A DNA stretch of 64,000 bases from NCBI GenBank assembly GCA_020850325.1, contig JADZEW010000024.1, positions 62,001 to 126,000 of the forward strand. Direction: 5' to 3'. The position numbers and the translations under genes are program-made. The stretch comes from Methanoregulaceae archaeon (GTDB lineage Bacteria; Armatimonadota; Fimbriimonadia; Fimbriimonadales; Fimbriimonadaceae). Under the pieces are notes generated by a model. That model was not told the DNA's origin, searched no databases, and saw only the letters and a program-made list of their open reading frames with translations. Below are positions 3,332 to 50,185 of the stretch, piece by piece; positions within the stretch are counted from its first letter, which is position 1, and the number at the start of each line of letters is the position of its first letter.

Positions 3332-3540
3332 GTTGTGGATTTTACGGTGTCGTGGCGATGCGTTTGTTGTGGGGTTGTAGGACCTTGAGGCCGAGGGGTT
3401 GACTCGTCCCCTCGGTAAAACCTGCGGCGGGACAACGCAACCGCCGCTTTCGGGGCAGAGGAGCCCAAGGCAAGTCTCCCTGAGGCCGAGGGTTGAATCG
3501 TCCCCTCGGTGTACTGGACGCTGGCCCAGAAAACCGAGCG
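3332..3540. other. 209-bp spacer between E2 and rdgB; holds three repeat hairpins
   Basis: No coding potential is evident. The spacer holds the rdgB -10 hexamer next to that gene and three units of the conserved-loop hairpin family described separately at 3391-3509. Confidence 0.6.
3391..3509. repeat. conserved-loop hairpin repeats, locus A (three units)
   Basis: Unit A1 (3391-3415, +) has stem CCGAGGGG/CCCCTCGG. Unit A2 (3424-3447, inverted) read on the minus strand is GCGGCGG, loop TTGCGTTGTC, CCGCCGC. Unit A3 (3486-3509, +) is CCGAGGG, loop TTGAATCGTC, CCCTCGG. Stems change by compensating bases while the loop keeps the pattern TTGMRTNGTC. A2 and A3 form the inverted/direct pair with 38 nt between them that recurs at loci B and C. 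Confidence 0.75.
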
Positions 3541-41496: not shown

Positions 41497-42528
41497 ATGG
41501 GTAATCGATACGTGGTCGGAGTCGACCTTGGCGGAACAAATGTCCGCGCATCCGTCTTCGACGAAACCGGGGTTCCGGTCTTGGAGACGCCGGTCGAGCA
41601 ACCCAGCCACGCTCAGGCCGGCACCGCCGGGATCATCGAAGCGATCGCGCGAACGGTTCAGCAGGCGATCAGCCGGGCTTCGGTAACTCCCGAGGCCGTC
41701 GGCATGGCGGTTCCGGGCCACATCGACAACGAGAGCGGAGTGGTCCGATGGTCGCCCAACTTCGGGGAAAGCGTGAACGGCGTGTTCGTTTGCTGGAGGG
41801 ATCAGCCGTTGCGAGAGCCGCTGAGCCGCTATCTGAGCCTGCCCATTGTGATGGGCAATGATGCGAACCTCGCCGCGCTCGGCGAATACCGGTTTGGCTC
41901 CGGCGGCGGGTCGGCGAACTGCCTCGTGATGTTCACCATCGGCACCGGCATCGGCGGCGGCGTCATCATGAGCCCGCGCTCCGTCTTCGGCAAGGCGGAA
42001 GGCCCCTTGATGCTCCTCGGTGGGAATGGCGGCGGCGGTGAACTTGGGCACACCATGGTGATCGCGGGCGGGCTCGACTGCAATGCGGGTAGCTACGGAG
42101 CGCTCGAGGCCTACTGCCAGCGCGACTCTATCGTGAAACGGGCGATCAACCGCCTTCAACGCGGCCGGCCGTCGATCATGCCCGATCTCGTCGAAGGCGA
42201 CCTTAGCAAGATTACGCCCCGCATCATCTCCTTAGCCGCCGAGCAGGGCGATGCGCTCGCCCGCCAGATCTGGCACGAGGTCGGAACCTACCTCGGCGTG
42301 GGAATCGGCAGCATGATCAATGTTTTTGCACCCGACGTCGTCGCGATCGGCGGTCAGATTGCAAAGGCAGGGCCCTGGCTTATGGATGCGGCGCGAGTGT
42401 CGGCGGCCGACAACGCGATCCCCTCGTTGTTCCAGGACGCGAAGATCGTGACCGCCGAGCTGATTGAGCACGCGGGAATGTACGGCGGCGCGGCGATGGC
42501 GCTGGAGGCTCTACGATGGAATCGCTAA
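41497..42528 (+). CDS. ROK-family sugar kinase with degenerate zinc motif
   Basis: A 343-residue ROK-family kinase, probably a glucokinase. The phosphate-1 loop is GVDLGGTNVRASVFD, and catalytic Asp is in GNDANLAALGE. FTIGTGIGGGVI is the phosphate-2 region and ELGHTMV holds the conserved His. The usual CxCGxxGCxE zinc motif is reduced to CNAGSYGALEAYC, so only one of the three cysteines stands at its usual place. ATG 41497 follows TAAACT by 7 nt. An ORF extension upstream would overlap the divergent gene. It overlaps the small gene downstream by 13 bp. Confidence 0.85.
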   Translation: MGNRYVVGVDLGGTNVRASVFDETGVPVLETPVEQPSHAQAGTAGIIEAIARTVQQAISRASVTPEAVGMAVPGHIDNESGVVRWSPNFGESVNGVFVCWRDQPLREPLSRYLSLPIVMGNDANLAALGEYRFGSGGGSANCLVMFTIGTGIGGGVIMSPRSVFGKAEGPLMLLGGNGGGGELGHTMVIAGGLDCNAGSYGALEAYCQRDSIVKRAINRLQRGRPSIMPDLVEGDLSKITPRIISLAAEQGDALARQIWHEVGTYLGVGIGSMINVFAPDVVAIGGQIAKAGPWLMDAARVSAADNAIPSLFQDAKIVTAELIEHAGMYGGAAMALEALRWNR

Positions 42529-42641
42529 CCTTCACTTGCGAGGTCGTCGAGATCGACGGCGGGCGGAAGGCCTACATTTACACCTTCGAGGGCACGCCGG
42601 ATGAGCAAGAGGTGTTGAAGAGTACGGAGGACGAATCTTGA
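42516..42641 (+). CDS. 41-residue small protein between ROK kinase and nadA
   Basis: ATG 42516 has a GGAGG site at 42504-42508 (7-nt spacing) within the ROK kinase gene, and the frame reads MESLTFTCEVVEIDGGRKAY, IYTFEGTPDEQEVL then KSTEDES before a tga at 42639-42641. It overlaps the ROK 3' end (13 bp) and the nadA TTG start (4 bp), a tight coupling at both sides. The composition is acidic, with two beta-like strands. I do not recognise it. It is a plausible real small protein, or a coupling ORF for nadA. Confidence 0.55.
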   Translation: MESLTFTCEVVEIDGGRKAYIYTFEGTPDEQEVLKSTEDES

Positions 42642-43747
42642 AGCAAGTTCCGCTCCCCGCGGAGTACATCGATCTCGGCACCGACGAGACCCGTGCCCGG
42701 ATTCAAGCGGCTAAAGCGGCCCTCGGTAATCGGGTCGTCATCCTCGGCCACCATTACCAGCGCGACGAGATCATCGAGCACGCCGACTTCCGAGGCGACT
42801 CCTACAAGCTGTGCCTCGATGCCAGCCGCCGTCCGGAGGCGGAGTTCATCGTGTTCTGTGGCGTTCACTTCATGGCGGAAAGCGCCGACATCCTCACCGA
42901 CAAGCGGGTGATTTTGCCCAACATGGCGGCCGGTTGTTCGATGGCCGATATGGCGAACATCTTCCAGGTCCGCGCGGCGTGGAAGGCGATCACCGAAGCT
43001 GATCCGGGCGTGAAGTACATCCCGGTCACCTACATCAACTCGGCGGCGAACCTCAAGGCGTTCGTCGGCCAGTACGGCGGCACGGTGTGTACGTCGACCA
43101 ACGCGCCGGTCGCGGTGCAGTGGGCGCTGGACCAGGGCGAGAAGGTGCTGTTCTTCCCAGACCAGCATCTCGGGCGCAACACGGCGGTCAAGCTGGGCTA
43201 CAACCCCGAGACGGACATGATCGTGTGGGACCCGTTCAAGCCGCTCGGCGGAAACACGGCCGAAGACATCCGCCGCGCGAAGTTCATCCTCTGGAAGGGC
43301 CACTGCTCGGTGCACAAGCGCTTTACGGTCGAGCAGATCGCGGCGGCGCGGGTGTCGCACTCCGGCGTTAAGGTGCTCGTGCATCCGGAGTGTGAGCTCG
43401 AAGTGGTTCAAGCGAGCGACTACAACGGCTCGACGGAGTTCATCATCAAGACCGTCGAGGCGGCTCCCGCGGGGACGACCTGGGCGATCGGTACTGAGAT
43501 CAACTTGGTGAACCGGCTGGCCAGCGAGCATCCCGAGCAGACCATCTTCTGCCTCGACCCGCAAATCTGCCCATGCTCTACGATGTATCGCATCCACCCT
43601 TCGTTTCTGCTGTGGACGCTGGAGCGCCTCGTCGACGGCGAGGTGGTAAACGAGGTCATCGTGCCGGATGACGTGAAGGGGCTGGCGCTGAAGGCGCTGG
43701 ATCAGATGCTCGCGTTGCCTCCGGTGGTCAAGGCGCTCACGGACTAG
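42638..43747 (+). CDS. nadA: quinolinate synthase A
   Basis: A 369-residue 4Fe-4S quinolinate synthase that condenses iminoaspartate with dihydroxyacetone phosphate in de novo NAD synthesis. The cluster cysteines are in NMAAGCSMADM, WKGHCSVHKRF and QICPCSTMYRIHP, as in the longer Bacillus-type NadA. ILGHHYQRDEIIEHADFRGD is the first substrate region. The start is TTG 42638 behind ggagga, overlapping the small-protein stop. nadB and nadC are not in this window. Confidence 0.95.
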   Translation: MKQVPLPAEYIDLGTDETRARIQAAKAALGNRVVILGHHYQRDEIIEHADFRGDSYKLCLDASRRPEAEFIVFCGVHFMAESADILTDKRVILPNMAAGCSMADMANIFQVRAAWKAITEADPGVKYIPVTYINSAANLKAFVGQYGGTVCTSTNAPVAVQWALDQGEKVLFFPDQHLGRNTAVKLGYNPETDMIVWDPFKPLGGNTAEDIRRAKFILWKGHCSVHKRFTVEQIAAARVSHSGVKVLVHPECELEVVQASDYNGSTEFIIKTVEAAPAGTTWAIGTEINLVNRLASEHPEQTIFCLDPQICPCSTMYRIHPSFLLWTLERLVDGEVVNEVIVPDDVKGLALKALDQMLALPPVVKALTD

Positions 43748-43753
43748 CTGTGG

Positions 43754-43812
43754 TTACCCCCGCCTCGCTTGCGGGGAGAGGGTCGGTGAGCTAAGCGAAC
43801 CGGGGTGAGGGG
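43754..43812. repeat. GC-skewed repeat, locus 43.75 kb
   Basis: Contains CGCCTCGCTTGCGGGG, followed by agagggtcggtgagc and an inverted continuation gaaccggggtgagggg. The same core occurs, inverted, at 44877-44909. Confidence 0.55.
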
Positions 43813-43824
43813 AACTGACGCCGC

Positions 43825-43909
43825 CTGAGGGGACAATGCAACCCTCAGCCTCATGGTGAGGTTGAGCTTCTGGAAACACCCTGAGGTCACCGGTTGCGTA
43901 GTCCCTCCG
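43825..43909. repeat. conserved-loop hairpin repeats, locus B (two units)
   Basis: Unit B1 (43825-43848, inverted): read on the minus strand, CTGAGGG, loop TTGCATTGTC, CCCTCAG. Unit B2 (about 43888-43909, +): loop TTGCGTAGTC with a decayed stem. The two are in inverted/direct order with about 40 nt between, as at loci A and C. Confidence 0.7.
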
Positions 43910-43963
43910 CTTCTCTTACGGAGTCGCTGGCAAGGCACAAACCCGCTATGATAGGGCTTACCG

Positions 43964-44440
43964 ATGTCGAACCCGGCGGCAAGACCGAGACCGATTGCGG
44001 GGATGTTGATCGGAACCGTCGTTGCGGTCCTGATTCTGTTGCCGTGTCTGGGGTTGCTTCAACGAGATGACTCTTCGGTCGAGGTGACCGTGGTCATCCA
44101 CTCCAAGTTTCGCGGGACGATCGGCCTGCCTTTTGACCAGGGGATCGCCGCCGAGAAGGTGACGGTTACATTCGACTCGAAGGGTGGCACCAGCGACCGC
44201 CTACCGAGTGGGCGGTGGTACCACATTGTGCGCGTGGTCGATGAACAAGGCCGGGAATACCCCTCCGGTTCTCCCCAACAGCAAGGTGATAAGCTGGGCT
44301 TCTGGTCTTCAGAGACGGGTGTTAGAGACCTGGTCTGGTACTACGTCGGCCCGGCTTCGGATGCGCTCAGATTCGACGCGGCGCTGCCGGACTCGGCGAT
44401 AACCGGATGGCGTCCGCCGAAGGAAAAAGCAATCCCATGA
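43964..44440 (+). CDS. membrane-anchored hypothetical protein
   Basis: A 158-residue protein with one N-terminal membrane helix (GMLIGTVVAVLILLPCLGLL) and an exported domain of beta strands (SVEVTVVIHSKFRGTIGLPF, AEKVTVTFDSKG, WYHIVRVVDEQG). There is no known family. The end overlaps the next gene (ATGA). An 11-nt gap separates a TATGAT hexamer from the ATG. Confidence 0.55.
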   Translation: MSNPAARPRPIAGMLIGTVVAVLILLPCLGLLQRDDSSVEVTVVIHSKFRGTIGLPFDQGIAAEKVTVTFDSKGGTSDRLPSGRWYHIVRVVDEQGREYPSGSPQQQGDKLGFWSSETGVRDLVWYYVGPASDALRFDAALPDSAITGWRPPKEKAIP

Positions 44441-44868
44441 GATACCTACTTGCTCTGCCGGTCACGTTGTTCTGCCTGGTCGGCTGTGGCGATTCCAGCC
44501 AGCCGTCGCTTGAGGGCAAGTGGGCGCTCGATGTGGAGGCCAGCGGAGTACCGAACTTGGGGCAGGATATGAAGACGGTCCCCTACCTTCGATTCGAAGG
44601 ACCATCGAGGGTGTTCTTCACGGTGAACGGTTCGGCCTCTGACGAGATGGCCGCGAACTACGAGCTGAAGGGCAAGTTGATCCGGGTTTTTCCTGAGGAG
44701 TATGTTCGCCCAATCTTCTTTGGGATTGACGGAACGCTCTATAAGGAGGGCATCGCGATCGAATGGGAGCTGCGCAGTAGCCAGATCATCTGGGCTCAAA
44801 GGGGCCGCCCGGGACGCAAGATGGTGTTTAACCGGCTGCCCATGCCTGCTCCCGCGCGACCCAACTGA
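44437..44868 (+). CDS. small lipoprotein
   Basis: A 143-residue lipoprotein. MRYLLALPVTLFCLVGCGDS is a lipoprotein signal with lipobox LVGC. The mature part (SLEGKWALDVEASGVPNLG, FEGPSRVFFTVNG, YEGIAIEWELR-type strands) looks like a small lipocalin- or META-like beta barrel, as in many 'lipoprotein with L-x-G-x-W' proteins. ATG 44437 is chosen by the 4-bp overlap with the upstream gene and the signal peptide; a frame start at 44407 would hide the signal. Confidence 0.7.
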   Translation: MRYLLALPVTLFCLVGCGDSSQPSLEGKWALDVEASGVPNLGQDMKTVPYLRFEGPSRVFFTVNGSASDEMAANYELKGKLIRVFPEEYVRPIFFGIDGTLYKEGIAIEWELRSSQIIWAQRGRPGRKMVFNRLPMPAPARPN

Positions 44869-44876
44869 TCACCGGC

Positions 44877-44909
44877 GACCCCCTCACCCCGCAAGCGAGG
44901 CGAGGGTAC
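44877..44909. repeat. GC-skewed repeat, locus 44.88 kb
   Basis: Inverted copy of the CGCCTCGCTTGCGGGGW core seen at 43754. It lies between the lipoprotein stop and the convergent pseudopilin stop. Confidence 0.55.
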
Positions 44910-44963
44910 GTCGGAATCCTGGGACGAAGCAGCCCCCAGGCTGGTTTTCTTGCTGGTCGACAC

Positions 44964-45740
44964 TCAGTCGCAGAGCGAGTACCATGTGCCCGACCAGGCG
45001 TTAGGGTCGCTTGTCGGCTCGCCGCTCCGGTTCCCCTCGGCATTGATCACCGTATTGTCAAACTGGCCCGCGTTCGTGATGTGTTTTGCGTGGCCATCGA
45101 CGAAGATCATCGCACCGCCCGTCGTTCCCCATTGGCGATAGTAGTTGTAGGGAACATCGCAGTCGTAGCCATAGCGACCGCAATCCGTATCGACCTTCCG
45201 CGAGAAGAACGGGAACATCTCGAGCCTGAGGGCGCGTGTGTTGGCCGGATCAGCGAACATGGTCTCATTCATGTTGCGCGTGTAGGTCCGCAGGGTGTTG
45301 TTTTGCGAGGACTCGCCTTCGACCACGGTGTAAACGCACTCCGTGAAGCGATACGAACTGCCATAGGCCTTCCAATAGGAATCGGCACCGGGAACATCGA
45401 TTCCCGTATAGGGTCCTCCGACGTCAAAGGGACTCTTGAAGATCTCCTTGTTCTTTGAATAGGGAAGTAGCAGGACCTCGGTGCCTTTGTGGCCTGGCTG
45501 GCCAGCGGGGGGAACGCTATTGTATGCGTAGAAGATCGGCATGACGTCGTCGTGATCCGCCAGATACAACTTCACCGTCAGGCCGATCTGACGGGCGTTG
45601 CTAAGGCACACGGTTTTCTTGGCCGCCTCTTTTGCCTGTGCGAACACGGGAAACAGGATGGCCGCCAAGATCGCGATGATCGCGATCACGACGAGCAACT
45701 CGATGAGAGTGAATCCCTGCCGAGAACGATCGTTTGTCAT
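44964..45740 (-). CDS. DUF1559-type pseudopilin downstream of a TPP riboswitch
   Basis: A 258-residue pseudopilin. [20 protein letters not shown] then [20 protein letters not shown] is the processed N-terminus. The C-terminal region has [14 protein letters not shown], where the His of the H-X9-DG motif is replaced by Gly, so the motif is degenerate. The mature domain contains paired cysteines ([17 protein letters not shown]). GGAGG lies 7 nt before ATG 45740. No thiamine gene is adjacent, yet the 5' leader contains a canonical TPP aptamer. Function unknown. Confidence 0.85.
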
Positions 45741-45802
45741 TTCAGAACCTCCGTTATGCGACGGTCTGCCCTCGCATCAATCGAAGGCAGGTGGGTCCTG
45801 TC

Positions 45803-45893
45803 TCCGCAATCCCTCCGCCGGTACAAGCCGGATCAGGTTCAAGGGGTCTTCCTTTCGGAACTCTCAGCCGCCAAAGCGGCTCCCCCTGCGGGC
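45803..45893 (-). ncRNA. TPP riboswitch aptamer (THI element)
   Basis: Read on the minus strand: a GGGGGAGC 5' strand, GGCTGAGAGTTCCG, ACCCCTTGAACCTGATC and CGGCGGAGGGA in order, with spacing as in the THI-box consensus. P1 can close by CCGCA with TGCGG, and P4 by CCGG with CCGG around a CTTGTA loop. These match all the invariant TPP positions I know. The leader ends about 62 nt before the pseudopilin ATG. No T-tract terminator lies between, so control by translation initiation is likely. Confidence 0.92.
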
Positions 45894-45908
45894 ATCAATC
45901 GCTCTTCT

Positions 45909-45914
45909 ATTCTA
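45909..45914 (-). promoter_or_regulatory. possible -10 box for the riboswitch transcript
   Basis: TAGAAT on the minus strand, about 16 bp before the aptamer. It lies just downstream of the lipoprotein terminator, so the riboswitch transcript would have its own promoter. No good -35 hexamer is seen at 17 bp. Confidence 0.35.
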
Positions 45915-45918
45915 CGAC

Positions 45919-45955
45919 AAAAAAGCCGCGAATCGGCACAAGTGCCGACCGCGGC
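45919..45955 (-). terminator. Rho-independent terminator of the small lipoprotein gene
   Basis: On the minus strand: GCCGCGGTCGGCAC, loop TTG, TGCCGATTCGCGGC, then TTTTTTG. Strong GC stem with T6; it separates the lipoprotein transcript from the riboswitch. Confidence 0.85.
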
Positions 45956-45977
45956 CCATTTTCCCTCTCCGGAAAGC

Positions 45978-46145
45978 TTAGTTGCGCAGGCCCTTGTCGT
46001 TCTCGGCCGCACCTTTCTTACCGGCGGCAGCCGAATCGACGTTGACCGGCTTCGAGGAGTCGACAGCCTCGGTCTTCTCGCCACAACCCGCGAGGAACGG
46101 GACGACAAGTGTTGCGATGAGGGAAAGAGCGATGATTTTCTTCAT
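45978..46145 (-). CDS. 55-residue lipoprotein
   Basis: MKKIIALSLIATLVVPFLAG precedes a Cys (lipobox FLAGC). The mature 35 residues (GEKTEAVDSSKPVNVDSAAA then GKKGAAENDKGLRN) are hydrophilic and probably disordered. ATG 46145 has a GGAGATT-type site. It is followed by an intrinsic terminator and starts 77 bp after the upstream pseudopilin stop. Its function is unknown, but short lipoproteins beside pseudopilin genes are common in this kind of genome. Confidence 0.75.
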   Translation of the reverse strand: MKKIIALSLIATLVVPFLAGCGEKTEAVDSSKPVNVDSAAAGKKGAAENDKGLRN

Positions 46146-46221
46146 GAGTCCACAATCTCCGAGATTGGTGGCTCGCCGGCACGAATGCCGACAAGCCACC
46201 TTTCATTCGCTGGATAGTACC

Positions 46222-47199
46222 TTAGAGGTCCGAGTCGCTCAGCGAGCACTCGCTGTCATCCCAGTTGAAGTCGCTGTCGGGGCGGAAGAAGCCCGGATAG
46301 TAGACTTCGGAACCCTGAGCCTTACCCGGCGAAACGCAGTCGGTCATCCAATAAGGAGCACCGGGAGCGCCCGCGGGGTCGAACTGCGACCACGGGTTGT
46401 CGTTGGTGTTCATCGCAGCGGCTGGGTAAAGCGGCGCGTTCATGGTCTTGAACTTAGCCGACGAGTCAGCAGCTGTGAAGTGGAGACCGCGACCATACAC
46501 CCACGTCGTGAAGTATGCGGTCGGAGTTGCCCAACCCCACCAAACGTAACCGTAAGCACCACCGAGAGAGCCCGGCTGGGGCAACTGGCCCGGCGAGAAG
46601 ATGCAAGGTCCAGGAGTCGGAGCGTCGCACTCGAGCGTGGGGCTCGAACGAGCAACGCCGTCGCGATTCTGCTTGAAGAGACCGGCCCAAACGAGCGGAA
46701 GCTTCGAAGGCTCCGTGACCGCCGTGCCAGACCACTGGTGGAGCATGCCGTTGAACGTCATGCCCATGTTTGCACGTGCTCGAACCGCATTCGCGAAGCT
46801 GACGTTAACCGTCTTCGGAATACCATTCTGAGCGAACATTTCAAGGTTCTTCACGTACGGTTGAATCGAGTTCGCCCAGAACTGGCCGTCCTCTTCCTGT
46901 CGGGTCGCCGTGTTGAACGGAGCGGTGTTGTCCCAGTTCTGCGGAACGCGATGGTAGAAGTCCCATCGCGGCAGGCCGGACACGCCGTCGGTGCCGAAGG
47001 AGAGCGGGAATCGATCGTCGGTATCACCGATGTAGATCTGAATCGCCGTACCCATCTGCTTAAAGTTGCTCAGCGTCGAAGTCTTCTTCGCGGCCTCCTT
47101 AGCCTGGGCAAACACGGGGAAGAGGATCGCCGCCAGAATCGCGATGATCGCGATGACGACGAGCAGTTCAATGAGCGTAAAGGCTCTCTTGCTGTTCAT
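46222..47199 (-). CDS. DUF1559-type pseudopilin
   Basis: A 325-residue pseudopilin; the N-terminus is [20 protein letters not shown], then [19 protein letters not shown]. The C-terminus ([20 protein letters not shown]) lacks a H-X9-DG motif. The central region ([38 protein letters not shown]) is aromatic. ATG 47199 is preceded by ggaggt (10-nt spacing) and a clear promoter at 47242-47270. Probably exported by the type II-like system; adhesive or cell-surface role is a guess. Confidence 0.85.
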
Positions 47200-47241
47200 A
47201 TGAGTTCTTGACCTCCAATCAAGGGATGCAATGCAATTCGC

Positions 47242-47270
47242 ATTATATGTGAAGCCCCGCCAAATTCCAA
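47242..47270 (-). promoter_or_regulatory. predicted sigma-70-type promoter for the 47.2-kb pseudopilin
   Basis: On the minus strand: -35 TTGGAA (47270-47265), 17-nt spacer, -10 TATAAT (47247-47242). The transcript would start near 47235 and have a leader of about 35 nt with ribosome site ggaggt. This is one of the few long-leader promoters here. Confidence 0.7.
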
Positions 47271-47363
47271 GCCCGCGGCTCAAAAAGTCGGGTTCTTTTC
47301 TAAAAGTTCCCGTGAGGGGCCCTTAGACTCACCCGCACGAGCTTCATTTGTTACAATGCGAGT

Positions 47364-47969
47364 GTGCAAACGCCACCACCCTTTTCGCCTCCGGGCTCCC
47401 CTCCGCGCAAGTCCAACACGGCCTTATGGATCGTGCTTATTGTCGTACTGTGCGTAGTGATCCCTTGCGGCGGCCTCGTCGCCCTCGGATTCTTCGGGAT
47501 GAACTGGTTCGGGAAGACCTTGGGGCCGATGGCTCGCTGCGCCATTCTCTTCGAGGGCGTGCGCAACAGCGTCGAGATGTACAGTAAGGACCACAACGGG
47601 GTTCTGCCAAAGGCCGAAACCTGGCAGGACGACGTCAAACCCTACTACGCGAAGTGGCGTGAGGGCGAGGGTAAAGACATGGGACCGTTCACGCCGCCTC
47701 CTGCTGACGGCGAATGGGCTTGCGAGATTGAGGGCCGAAAGACCGGTATGGCGTTCAACTCGAAACTCTCAGGCAAGAAGTGGGAGGAAATCGATCAGCG
47801 CCGAACGACCATCCTCATCTACGAAGTCGAAACGGCGATGAGAAACGCAAGCGGCCCCTACAAGGAGCGTCCCAAGTCGGGCAGCCCGAAGCTGATGGGC
47901 AACCCTCGGGGCTGGATCGAGGTTCCTGTCGAGGGCTCGATGAACGACATCAAGATCGGCGACAATTGA
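47364..47969 (+). CDS. single-pass membrane protein with pilin-like region
   Basis: A 201-residue protein. The first 15 residues are Pro/Ser rich, followed by a membrane helix (TALWIVLIVVLCVVIPCGGL). The exported part has ILFEGVRNSVEMYSKDHNGV and LPKAETWQDDVKPYYAK, similar to the post-helix segment of pseudopilins, but without a prepilin signal. The start is GTG 47364, 4 nt after TACAAT; GTG 47362 is not in frame. No known family; it starts the + strand run 47.4-49.1 kb. Confidence 0.55.
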   Translation: MQTPPPFSPPGSPPRKSNTALWIVLIVVLCVVIPCGGLVALGFFGMNWFGKTLGPMARCAILFEGVRNSVEMYSKDHNGVLPKAETWQDDVKPYYAKWREGEGKDMGPFTPPPADGEWACEIEGRKTGMAFNSKLSGKKWEEIDQRRTTILIYEVETAMRNASGPYKERPKSGSPKLMGNPRGWIEVPVEGSMNDIKIGDN

Positions 47970-48024
47970 ACCCGGCAGTCTGACGAGGACGCTTCAAACT
48001 TCCGATACTTCCTCAAGAGGAACC

Positions 48025-48579
48025 ATGTCGGACGCGCCAAAGGAAGAAGGCAAGAAGAAAAAGGGCAAGTTGCCCGTGCTCATTGTTGTGGTCGCCATTC
48101 TCTTCGGAGGTGGCTTCTTCGGCATGAAGATGAAGGGGGGCGAGAAGAAAGAGCCCGAGATCAAACTTGGCAAGATCGTCGAGTTCGACGAGAAGCTCTT
48201 CAACCTCAGCGACATGCAGACTTACCTGCGCACGACCGTCGCCCTCCATTTGAAAGATGGCTACGACGAGGCCAAGTTCAAAGAGGTCCTCCCCGCGGTT
48301 GAGGACACGATGAACCTCGTCATCCGGGCGAAATCCCCTGCCCAGGTTCAAACGGTTTCTGGCATCCAGAAGCTGAAGAAGGAACTCGCCGAAAGAATCA
48401 ATACCGTTCTCGCCAACTTGGAGAGCGGCTCGGCCGGTCACAAAGACGAGAAGAAGGACACTGCCAAGGATAAGGGCGACGGCTCCCCAGAGTCGAAGAA
48501 GGATGTGCCCGGGAACGACTGGGACTCTCAGTCAGGTCCCGTCCTCAAGGTCTACTTCAAGGCGTTCGCCGTTCAGTAA
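48025..48579 (+). CDS. FliL-family protein
   Basis: A 184-residue membrane protein with a cytoplasmic Lys-rich N-terminus (APKEEGKKKKGKLPVLIVVV, helix AILFGGGFFGM). The exported domain (LFNLSDMQTYLRTTVALHL, FKEVLPAVEDTMNLVIR) is FliL-like, related to stomatin/SPFH folds that surround flagellar stators. A Lys/Asp-rich insert (HKDEKKDTAKDKGDGSPES) splits the end. gagg lies before ATG 48025. No other flagellar gene is nearby. Placement in FliL is by pattern. Confidence 0.75.
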   Translation: MSDAPKEEGKKKKGKLPVLIVVVAILFGGGFFGMKMKGGEKKEPEIKLGKIVEFDEKLFNLSDMQTYLRTTVALHLKDGYDEAKFKEVLPAVEDTMNLVIRAKSPAQVQTVSGIQKLKKELAERINTVLANLESGSAGHKDEKKDTAKDKGDGSPESKKDVPGNDWDSQSGPVLKVYFKAFAVQ

Positions 48580-48616
48580 GGCACTTCCAAACCTGGCCTT
48601 TGCGTAAACTCCTCCG

Positions 48617-49141
48617 ATGTATCATCGGTTTCGCTCGTTGCACCGCTGGTTTGGCGTCCTCGCTGCACTGGCTCTGCTCCTCATCTCCGGGACGGGCTTT
48701 CTGCTTGCCACCAAGAAGTCGGTCGATTGGATTCGCCCTTTAGAGCGCAAAGGCACCCCAGTAGACACTCTTGCCGTGGTCGTCTCCGTCCACGATGCAG
48801 CCGAGGCCGCGTTCGCTTTGGGTCTGCCGATGCTCAAGGACGTCAAGGACATCGACCGCATCGATTATCGGCCGAAGAGCAACGTGTTCAAGGTTGTCAG
48901 CAAGACCGGCTACAAGGAAGTGCAGGTGGATGGCGCAACGGGCAAGGTTTTGAACGTTGCCGACCGCAATGACCAGTTCATCGAGCAGCTTCACGACTTT
49001 AGCTGGTTCCACGATTATGCGCATCAGTACGGCCTACCGGTCGCAGCGCTGGCGCTACTGTTCCTCGCCGGTAGCGGTATCGGAATCTTCTTCGTGCCGA
49101 TCATCCGACGTCGCAAGTTCCAGAAGACCAGAAAGCCATAG
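48617..49141 (+). CDS. PepSY-domain membrane protein
   Basis: A 174-residue membrane protein with two helices (FGVLAALALLLISGTGFLLA near the N-terminus; GLPVAALALLFLAGSGIGIF near the C-terminus). Between them lies a PepSY-like domain (VHDAAEAAFALGLPMLKDV, YKEVQVDGATGKVLNVADR). HDFSWFHDYAH precedes helix 2. Such PepSY-TM proteins resemble parts of iron-uptake-linked or peptidase-inhibitor proteins. ATG 48617 is 6 nt after TAAACT. Confidence 0.75.
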   Translation: MYHRFRSLHRWFGVLAALALLLISGTGFLLATKKSVDWIRPLERKGTPVDTLAVVVSVHDAAEAAFALGLPMLKDVKDIDRIDYRPKSNVFKVVSKTGYKEVQVDGATGKVLNVADRNDQFIEQLHDFSWFHDYAHQYGLPVAALALLFLAGSGIGIFFVPIIRRRKFQKTRKP

Positions 49142-49168
49142 CGTGCGGATGGCGTGCCCTTAACTTCG

Positions 49169-49250
49169 CTGAGGGGACCATGCAACCCTCAGCCTCAGGT
49201 GGGGAGGGGAGGCTGAGATACCCTTAGTCGGCGGTTGCGTTGTCCCGCCG
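49169..49250. repeat. conserved-loop hairpin repeats, locus C (two units)
   Basis: Unit C1 (49169-49192, inverted): read on the minus strand CTGAGGG, loop TTGCATGGTC, CCCTCAG. Unit C2 (49229-49250, +): CGGCGG, loop TTGCGTTGTC, CCGCCG. Spacer 36 nt. It lies between convergent genes (PepSY and BFN). Confidence 0.75.
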
Positions 49251-49268
49251 AATCCTAAGAGCTAGAAG

Positions 49269-49760
49269 CTAGCCATCGACCGCGTCGAGGATGCCATCCG
49301 AGGCGAAGATCGAAGCGTCGTAGCGAATCGCAATCGCCACCGCATCGCTCGGGCGAGCGTCGATCGCGACTTCCTCACCCTTGTGCACAAGAAACACCTT
49401 CGCGTAGTACGTCGAGTTCCAGAGGTCGTCGATAACGACCCTCGTGACCGACCCTTCGAGGCGGTCGATAATCGCCTTCAGCAAGTCATGAGTAAGCGGC
49501 CGGTCGTAACGCTCGTTTGCCAGGGCGCAGCTGATGGAGTGCGCCTCGACCGGACCGATGCTGATCGCCAGGCGGCGCGCTCCGTCGGTCAAGAGCACGT
49601 AGTGCTGGATGTGCCCGTTCTGCTCAACGGCGTACACGCCTTCGACGTTGACTTCGACGGGCTCGCCCAAGTCGGCGGGAATCCGCTCCTCGTCTTCCTC
49701 ACGGGGAAAGAACGCGGGCGGCTCGCTGAAACTGTCGTCTCCGGGGAGTTCCTCGGGCAT
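49269..49760 (-). CDS. bifunctional nuclease family protein (DUF151)
   Basis: A 163-residue BFN/DUF151 protein. After an acidic N-terminal region the domain runs from about 35 (VEVNVEGVYAVEQNGHIQHY) through LAISIGPVEAHSISCALANE, RPLTHDLLKAIIDRL and YYAKVFLVHKGEEVAIDARP to SDAVAIAIRYDASIFAS. Plant homologues have nuclease activity; bacterial function is not established. ATG 49760 is chosen because TAACCT ends 7 nt upstream; GTG 49781 is an alternative. It is convergent with the PepSY gene. Confidence 0.88.
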   Translation of the reverse strand: MPEELPGDDSFSEPPAFFPREEDEERIPADLGEPVEVNVEGVYAVEQNGHIQHYVLLTDGARRLAISIGPVEAHSISCALANERYDRPLTHDLLKAIIDRLEGSVTRVVIDDLWNSTYYAKVFLVHKGEEVAIDARPSDAVAIAIRYDASIFASDGILDAVDG

Positions 49761-49798
49761 CCTTATCAGGTTACCTGTCACCTGCGCTCAAGTGAGCG

Positions 49799-50185
49799 TC
49801 AGGAAGGCTCGCGCACCTGGCCAAAGGTGATATCGTGCTCGTCCAAATCCTGGATGCCGAACTCACGGGTCCCCCAGGGTGTGTCGTACAGGGTGTAGTC
49901 GATCGACACGCCTCGGTCCTGCAACTCTTGGTACAGCCCGTCCACGTCCTCGACCCAGATGTAGACGTTGTTCGTCGATGGAGCCACGCGCCAGTTCGGC
50001 AGGGGCGGCTGGGTACCGTGGGGCGTCTGCGCAAGCATGATCGTGACGCCGTCGCGCGTCGGCATGGCGAAGGTCGGCGGATCGTTGTAGAGCCTTGGAA
50101 CCTCGAATCCGACTCGCTCGCGCCAGTACTCGGCGGACGCCAGAAGATCACGGACGAGGAGGACGGGGGCGGACTTGATCAGCAT
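49799..50185 (-). CDS. VOC-family (glyoxalase-like) protein
   Basis: A 128-residue VOC-fold protein: APVLLVRDLLASAEYWRERV, FGIQDLDEHDITFGQ and YIWVEDVDGLYQELQDRGV. Metal positions H/Q/E are not clear: FAMPTRDGVTIMLAQ holds a Gln and FGIQDLDEHDI contains a Glu, but the first His is missing. Substrate unknown (fosfomycin/bleomycin-like or dioxygenase types share the fold). ATG 50185 follows TAGGAT by 6 nt. Confidence 0.8.
   Translation of the reverse strand: MLIKSAPVLLVRDLLASAEYWRERVGFEVPRLYNDPPTFAMPTRDGVTIMLAQTPHGTQPPLPNWRVAPSTNNVYIWVEDVDGLYQELQDRGVSIDYTLYDTPWGTREFGIQDLDEHDITFGQVREPS

Follow-up and report, generated by a model that had tools for sequence, protein, structure and literature searches.

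Group-3 TnpA-REP enzymes (RAYTs) read bases in the loop of their REP hairpins and for the most part need the stem to be paired (Corneloup 2021, PMC8266576). In the group-3 pairs of Stenotrophomonas maltophilia and Marinomonas a perfect stem follows a tetranucleotide, the RAYT is flanked by inverted REPs, specific loop bases are essential and stem sequence is largely tolerated as long as it pairs; the guide role of the tetranucleotide has been demonstrated for Marinomonas (PMC8266576). The hairpins described here, from the phylum Armatimonadota, resemble these pairs in flanking, in stem and in what the loop and stem appear to be kept for, and differ from them in having a loop of 10 nt (rather than 3-4 nt) with the core TGNNTYGT, and, in family A, GAGG as the presumed guide.

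A second set of relatives is provided by the GTAG REP families of Di Nocera 2013 (PMC3733652), which are tagged palindromes occurring in doublets, with several families per genome, repeat-specific RAYTs and sub-families that carry alternative complementary stem residues. These features recur in the present elements. Most loops of the GTAG families are, however, given there as 2-4 nt (only GTAG-15 is given 9-15), and their tags read GTAG or nearly so; by the text descriptions of that paper, GAGG-headed families fall outside its 24 types. REPs with compensated stems, genomes with several REP families and coevolving RAYTs were already known (PMC2817692, PMC3733652, PMC6006769). (The preliminary description of this DNA had held that ordinary REPs keep the stem and vary elsewhere, which PMC3733652 and PMC8266576 contradict.) Published search rules for short hairpins are set for GTAG or GTGG and for loops of 2-5 nt (PMC6006769), so that the principal family found here, family A, would escape them; its 10-nt loop is longer than in nearly all described short REPs. 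The E. coli TnpA-REP (PDB 4er8, group 2) has the same fold as the enzyme described below, and the HUH motif and the tyrosine of YxxNP are common to both. Its REP has a bulged stem that is read together with GTAG, and a loop whose role is structural only, whereas the stem here is unbulged and the loop conserved. CGTC-tagged REPs (Di Nocera 2013) have the YGTC tetranucleotide in common with family A; the tag is unpaired outside their stem, whereas YGTC lies here in the loop beside the 3' arm and a transposase is associated. Assignment to the CGTC-tagged class was dropped because of this position in the loop.

The units are very probably REP elements, that is, non-autonomous single-stranded DNA hairpins of an IS200/IS605-related system, their cognate enzyme being a RAYT (TnpA-REP) whose gene lies at another place in the genome. 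What is new is the GAGG head, the 10-nt loop and a loop core common to several RAYT lineages; REPs as a kind of element are known. A full-text search confined to a collection of open-access papers returned none naming both Armatimonadetes and RAYTs. The family is a natural-evolution counterpart, in Armatimonadota, to the in vitro group-3 finding that the loop is read and the stem mainly paired.

Hairpin units at three intergenic sites

Inspection of the 64-kb window (the whole stretch of DNA that was analysed) confirms the seven intergenic hairpin units at three sites that had been listed in the preliminary description. Two of its generalizations hold in part. The loop is conserved but is not uniformly of 10 nt, having 11 (GTTGACTCGTC) in unit 1; stems change together on both arms in six of the seven units but not in unit 5 (43879-43910), whose stem is broken, with 3/7 pairs remaining. 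A conserved 5' head, CCCTGAGG, had been overlooked and surfaced when the copies were extracted.

At the first site, unit 1 (family A; 3383..3415, + strand; 31.9 bits with covariance model R1) has the head CCTTGAGG and the stem CCGAGGG/CCCTCGG around its 11-nt loop. It forms a heads-outside doublet, with a gap of 8 bp, with unit 2 (family A; 3424..3455, - strand; 41.5 bits), in which a degenerate head, CCCCGAAA, precedes the stem GCGGCGG/CCGCCGC and the loop TTGCGTTGTC. Unit 3 (family A; 3478..3509, + strand; 50.5 bits) combines the head CCCTGAGG with the stem CCGAGGG/CCCTCGG and the loop TTGAATCGTC, and stands heads-inside to unit 2 across 22 bp.

The second site holds a heads-inside doublet with a 22-bp gap. 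Its unit 4 (family A; 43825..43856, - strand; 48.7 bits) is composed of head CCATGAGG, stem CTGAGGG/CCCTCAG and loop TTGCATTGTC, and the decayed-stem unit 5 (43879..43910, + strand; 37.6 bits) of head CCCTGAGG, arms TCACCGG/CCTCCGC and loop TTGCGTAGTC. At the third site, likewise heads-inside, with 19 bp between the units, unit 6 (family A; 49169..49200, - strand; 46.9 bits) carries head ACCTGAGG, stem CTGAGGG/CCCTCAG and loop TTGCATGGTC; unit 7 (49220..49251, + strand; 36.6 bits) has a degenerate head, ACCCTTAG, the stem TCGGCGG/CCGCCGA and again the loop TTGCGTTGTC. One of the three sites lies between the gene for a 2-oxoacid dehydrogenase acyltransferase (E2) and a Ham1-family gene, another has nadA on one side and a small ORF on the other, and another lies between convergent genes for PepSY_TM and bifunctional-nuclease-domain proteins.

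Adjoining unit 4, at 43755-43815 of the window, is a second palindromic repeat, cccccgcctcgcttgcggggagagggtcggtgagctaagcgaaccggggtgagggg, which matches several contigs of the sister species at 82-93% and is similar to terminal inverted repeats of the GGGGWSAS type that belong to TIRYT transposases.

The 32-nt unit and its probable cognate RAYT

The full unit spans 32 nt. The 8-nt head, CCCTGAGG, stands directly before the stem, which has 7 bp and encloses the loop T[TG]GNNTYGTC. The limits of the unit are sharp, per-base information falling to about zero beyond a block whose first bases are the CCCT of the head and whose last is the final base of the stem. Allowing at most one mismatch, GGTTGMRTNGTCC is matched 10 times in the window where 1.3 matches are expected (none of 100 shuffles reaches 10); over the whole genome it has 27 exact matches against 2 for the reversed pattern, and the wider pattern GGWTGNNTYGTSCC has 107 against 0. 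Within family A the head carries 1.46 bits per position and the loop 1.57, whereas the five stem positions on the outside average about 1.03; variation is also seen at two inner positions of the loop, and the closing inner GG/CC of the stem is nearly fixed. The canonical REP foot is GT[AG]G, as opposed to the GAGG found at the same position within CCCTGAGG in family A and its sub-family A'; in G000 and G057 alike, sister REPs have GTAG or GTGG there.

Stems are far from uniform, with 15 distinct 5' arms among 45 family A copies, and they vary in a compensated manner. In a set of 28 distinct copies, pairing holds in 94.9% of stem cells, against 75.9% in shuffles that ignore the kinship of the copies, and 44 stem cells are double-changed (17.3 in shuffles), with double changes at four pairs. 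The covariation score is equalled in none of 500 shuffles, which again ignore kinship, and in slid structures, used as a control, pairing falls to 42-61%. No mini-helix is predicted within the family A loop.

A covariance model built from the units, as the preliminary description had proposed, was searched across 85 genomes of Fimbriimonadaceae and yields 50 matches in the window's own genome (G000) and 29 in that of the sister species (G057, Fimbriimonadaceae bacterium RX3_metabat.bin.16), which is the one further genome available for the genus; the remaining 83 have 0. The preliminary description named as refuting it a genome without more copies, or a loop as variable as the stem; neither is seen, since copies are found throughout the genome and the loop is the better conserved of the two. 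REPs in general usually exceed 100 copies per genome, compared with about 50 for this family, and this lower number counts against the REP reading, as do the non-canonical GAGG, the long loop, the A' copies of G000 and the lack of significant correlation of REP with RAYT distance described below. By codon use, 53 of 54 copies score as non-coding (their median is -4.3, and that of tiles of the window 9.0). Neighbouring copies form pairs (n=15), 6 of them heads-outside and 5 heads-inside, at tight distances: 7-18 for heads-outside doublets and 19-22 for heads-inside doublets. Tandem gaps are 21-23 at the RAYT locus, with one of 72 elsewhere.

The same 2 of the 85 genomes carry both the copies and the cognate RAYT, a co-occurrence at the level of the genus that has one exception, the A' copies of G000 considered below. 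The RAYT that had been suggested as an object of search is present in both species. In G000 it is a 170-residue protein (contig C22, 136212-136691) whose gene sits between inverted copies of the family A element, with 2 (+) copies at one flank and 3 (-) copies at the opposite flank, one of the five being decayed. In G057 (contig C27) a protein 98% identical is encoded between inverted family A copies arranged in the same way. This REPtron arrangement bears out the suggestion that the units are transposase-recognised hairpins under constraint on structure and loop.

Assignment of the protein as a RAYT is based on several comparisons. It scores 81.4 bits with NF047646 (REP-associated tyrosine transposase; cut-off 80), and the IS200 model has no match to it. 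A profile of this RAYT and three paralogues finds 4er8 by sequence with an E value of 4e-11; HUH is aligned, and so is the tyrosine of YxxNP, with Tyr115 of 4er8. The AF2 model of the sister-species protein (pLDDT 90) has 4er8 as its best Foldseek match (E 3e-9, TM 0.67), and the PDHxH (HUH) and YxxNP motifs are nearly invariant across 44 relatives. Sub-family A' has the stem TCGTCGG/CCGACGC, with its outer pair unpaired, and the loop TGGGYTCGTC. It flanks a sister RAYT (L130) in G057 (clade support 98/96); G000 has 13 A' copies, and no A' RAYT was found there.

A plausible mechanism can be put together from these features. When a locus becomes single-stranded, for example as lagging-strand template, the head-bearing strand would fold. 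The RAYT, an HUH enzyme with the catalytic tyrosine of YxxNP, would bind the hairpin through loop bases G3, T6, G8 and T9 and the closing GG/CC; the GAGG tetranucleotide would serve as the guide that selects where to cut, perhaps inside the conserved CCCT on the 5' side of GAGG, and the enzyme would then copy or move single units or doublets. The stem would be required mainly as a paired duplex of 6-7 bp, and differing stem sequences could therefore persist as sub-lineages.

Another RAYT paralogue (L124, G000:C30:124463-124903; L134 in G057:C60) has an ORF that is open in both species, and its motifs are lost, LPSQFH/LPSQFR standing in place of HUH and EIAHAP in place of YxxNP. Judged by these residues it is possibly a catalytically dead but retained binding protein.

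Stem variation between copies and between species

G000 and G057 are about 89% alike at loci of this kind. At nine sites common to both, all away from the RAYT locus, the stems are nearly frozen, most being identical. The exceptions are one single-sided change of T-A to T.G and one stem (L017 vs L171) that is mismatched in one species and matched in the other. Stem variety thus arises between copy lineages and not by fast compensation in place (what this amounts to is that the covariation is mostly between copies). The ortholog comparison favours sites at which G057 has a copy too, and four sites picked without regard to G057 were therefore examined; the intact family A set is kept at 0/4 of them. 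The first site of the window is represented in G057 by one decayed unit next to foreign sequence, and the other three by a truncated unit, by a family-B doublet replacing the family A doublet, and by no unit. These site differences are turnover, consistent with mobility without proving it.

The constancy of shared stems also bears on a reading that would amend the REP explanation in part: stems may be compensated because one arm of a quasi-palindrome is rewritten from the other by replication strand switching, only head and loop being under constraint by selection or descent. Templated correction of quasi-palindromes is known in bacteria. The stems of different copies do differ in blocks (CTGGCGG vs CTGCGGG), as conversion would produce, and the L017/L171 pair is mismatched in one species and paired in the other. 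At 8/9 shared sites, however, stems are unchanged or altered on one side only, so that active rewriting is not visible, and group-3 enzymes need a paired stem (PMC8266576). The amendment is judged unlikely, although it keeps an appreciable share of the probability.

Compensated stems and a conserved loop are also typical of structured RNA, and the units lie downstream of genes, one site being between convergent genes. The hairpins might on these grounds be transcribed elements (acting as terminators, as signals for processing or stability, or as RNA bound by protein) whose covariation reflects RNA structure, and the preliminary description had entertained an RNA-recognised hairpin. REPs elsewhere may have secondary RNA effects. 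This proposal is very improbable: a terminator scan of 42000-50000, which covers sites 2 and 3, gives no terminator-like match at the units, and a role as terminator was dropped on that account; Rfam has no match at the units; irregular pairs on the head strand, in small numbers, comprise 5 G.T and 5 A.C, when constraint on RNA should favour G.U; and both the occurrence of inverted doublets in two arrangements and the RAYT flanked by family A units argue against it. (The sole Rfam match is a TPP riboswitch at 45792-45896 of the window, on the - strand, with 73 bits.) That the units are independent inactive relics, decayed ends of an IS200/IS605 insertion sequence and not REPs, can be put aside as more improbable still, for although the enzyme is a member of the Y1 transposase superfamily, the units are full-length 32-mers with sharp ends, one flanked RAYT gene of the family A type was found per species against tens of free units, and the protein is above the NF047646 cut-off with the IS200 model unmatched.

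The loop core in other RAYT lineages

Other RAYTs of G000 and G057 have REP hairpins beside them, of the forms CACGTGG-GGCAGGG-ATGYCTYGTG, CACGAGG-TGCGAGG-ATGGTTTGTG, TTGTRG-GTTCCGG-ATGYATCGTG and TTGTAG-GTGAGGG-ATGAGTTGTG, and other genera of Fimbriimonadaceae have such REPs as GTAG-C-CGCCGG-ATGTTTCGTG and GTAGC-CGGAGG-TGGTTCGTG. Across these genomes and genera the heads and stems of RAYT-adjacent REPs differ and the loop core TGNNTYGT is common to them. RAYTs thus sit beside REPs of their own that share a loop core, and for this reason the hairpins have rightly been called transposase-recognised.

The REPs of 13 RAYT lineages from several genera share loop bases G3, T6, G8 and T9 and the closing GG without exception; their guides are fixed at positions 1 and 4 and vary at positions 2-3, and the outer stem is free. 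These lineages were picked as long-loop cases, and the loop types of the wider survey were set by a motif filter, so that the counts are biased toward the loop motif; the same long-loop hairpins are also recovered without the filter. A Mantel-type test of REP distance against RAYT distance in the 13 lineages is not significant (loop rho 0.23; 176/2000 permutations as high), and co-divergence of REP and RAYT beyond sister pairs is accordingly not claimed. The loop motif is enriched over control in genera g30, g11 and g20 (53:1, 37:2, 29:0, 26:1); it often tops longer imperfect palindromes there, and a simple stem of at least 5 bp is consequently found in just 6 of 31 inspected cases. In loci L257, L258 and L259, from other genera, the loop ATGGYTYGTG or ATGGGTTGTG is carried on longer imperfect palindromes with internal mismatches, of which CCCCTTCTCC...GGAGAAGGGG is an example.

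It is possible, and is put forward tentatively, that TGNNTYGT capped by GG/CC serves the RAYTs of Armatimonadota as a family-wide recognition code, one maintained down to less than 45% RAYT identity while guide and stem diversify. Paralogous RAYTs of one genome could in that case partly cross-mobilise one another's elements, and family identity would be set by the guide and not by the hairpin. At one intergenic site (L006, 1488-1561; L202 in G057:C111) the species differ in having a family A doublet and a family-B doublet (loop ATGTCTTGTG), respectively, which would fit cross-mobilisation under a shared code. With several RAYT paralogues per genome, each with its own REPs, and a loop core in common, the genus would allow the code of guide, stem and loop to be dissected by swapping parts.

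A neighbouring RAYT clade (Nitrospirota, Planctomycetota and others) is associated with GTAG REPs that have stems of the CGCAGGC type and TTYA loops, which resemble the TTTA loop of Marinomonas. In a distant RAYT clade (L126, L105, L107, L110) the REPs are GGAG-headed, with variable 7-bp stems, and the loop is a 6-nt CTYYGT, likewise ending in YGT.
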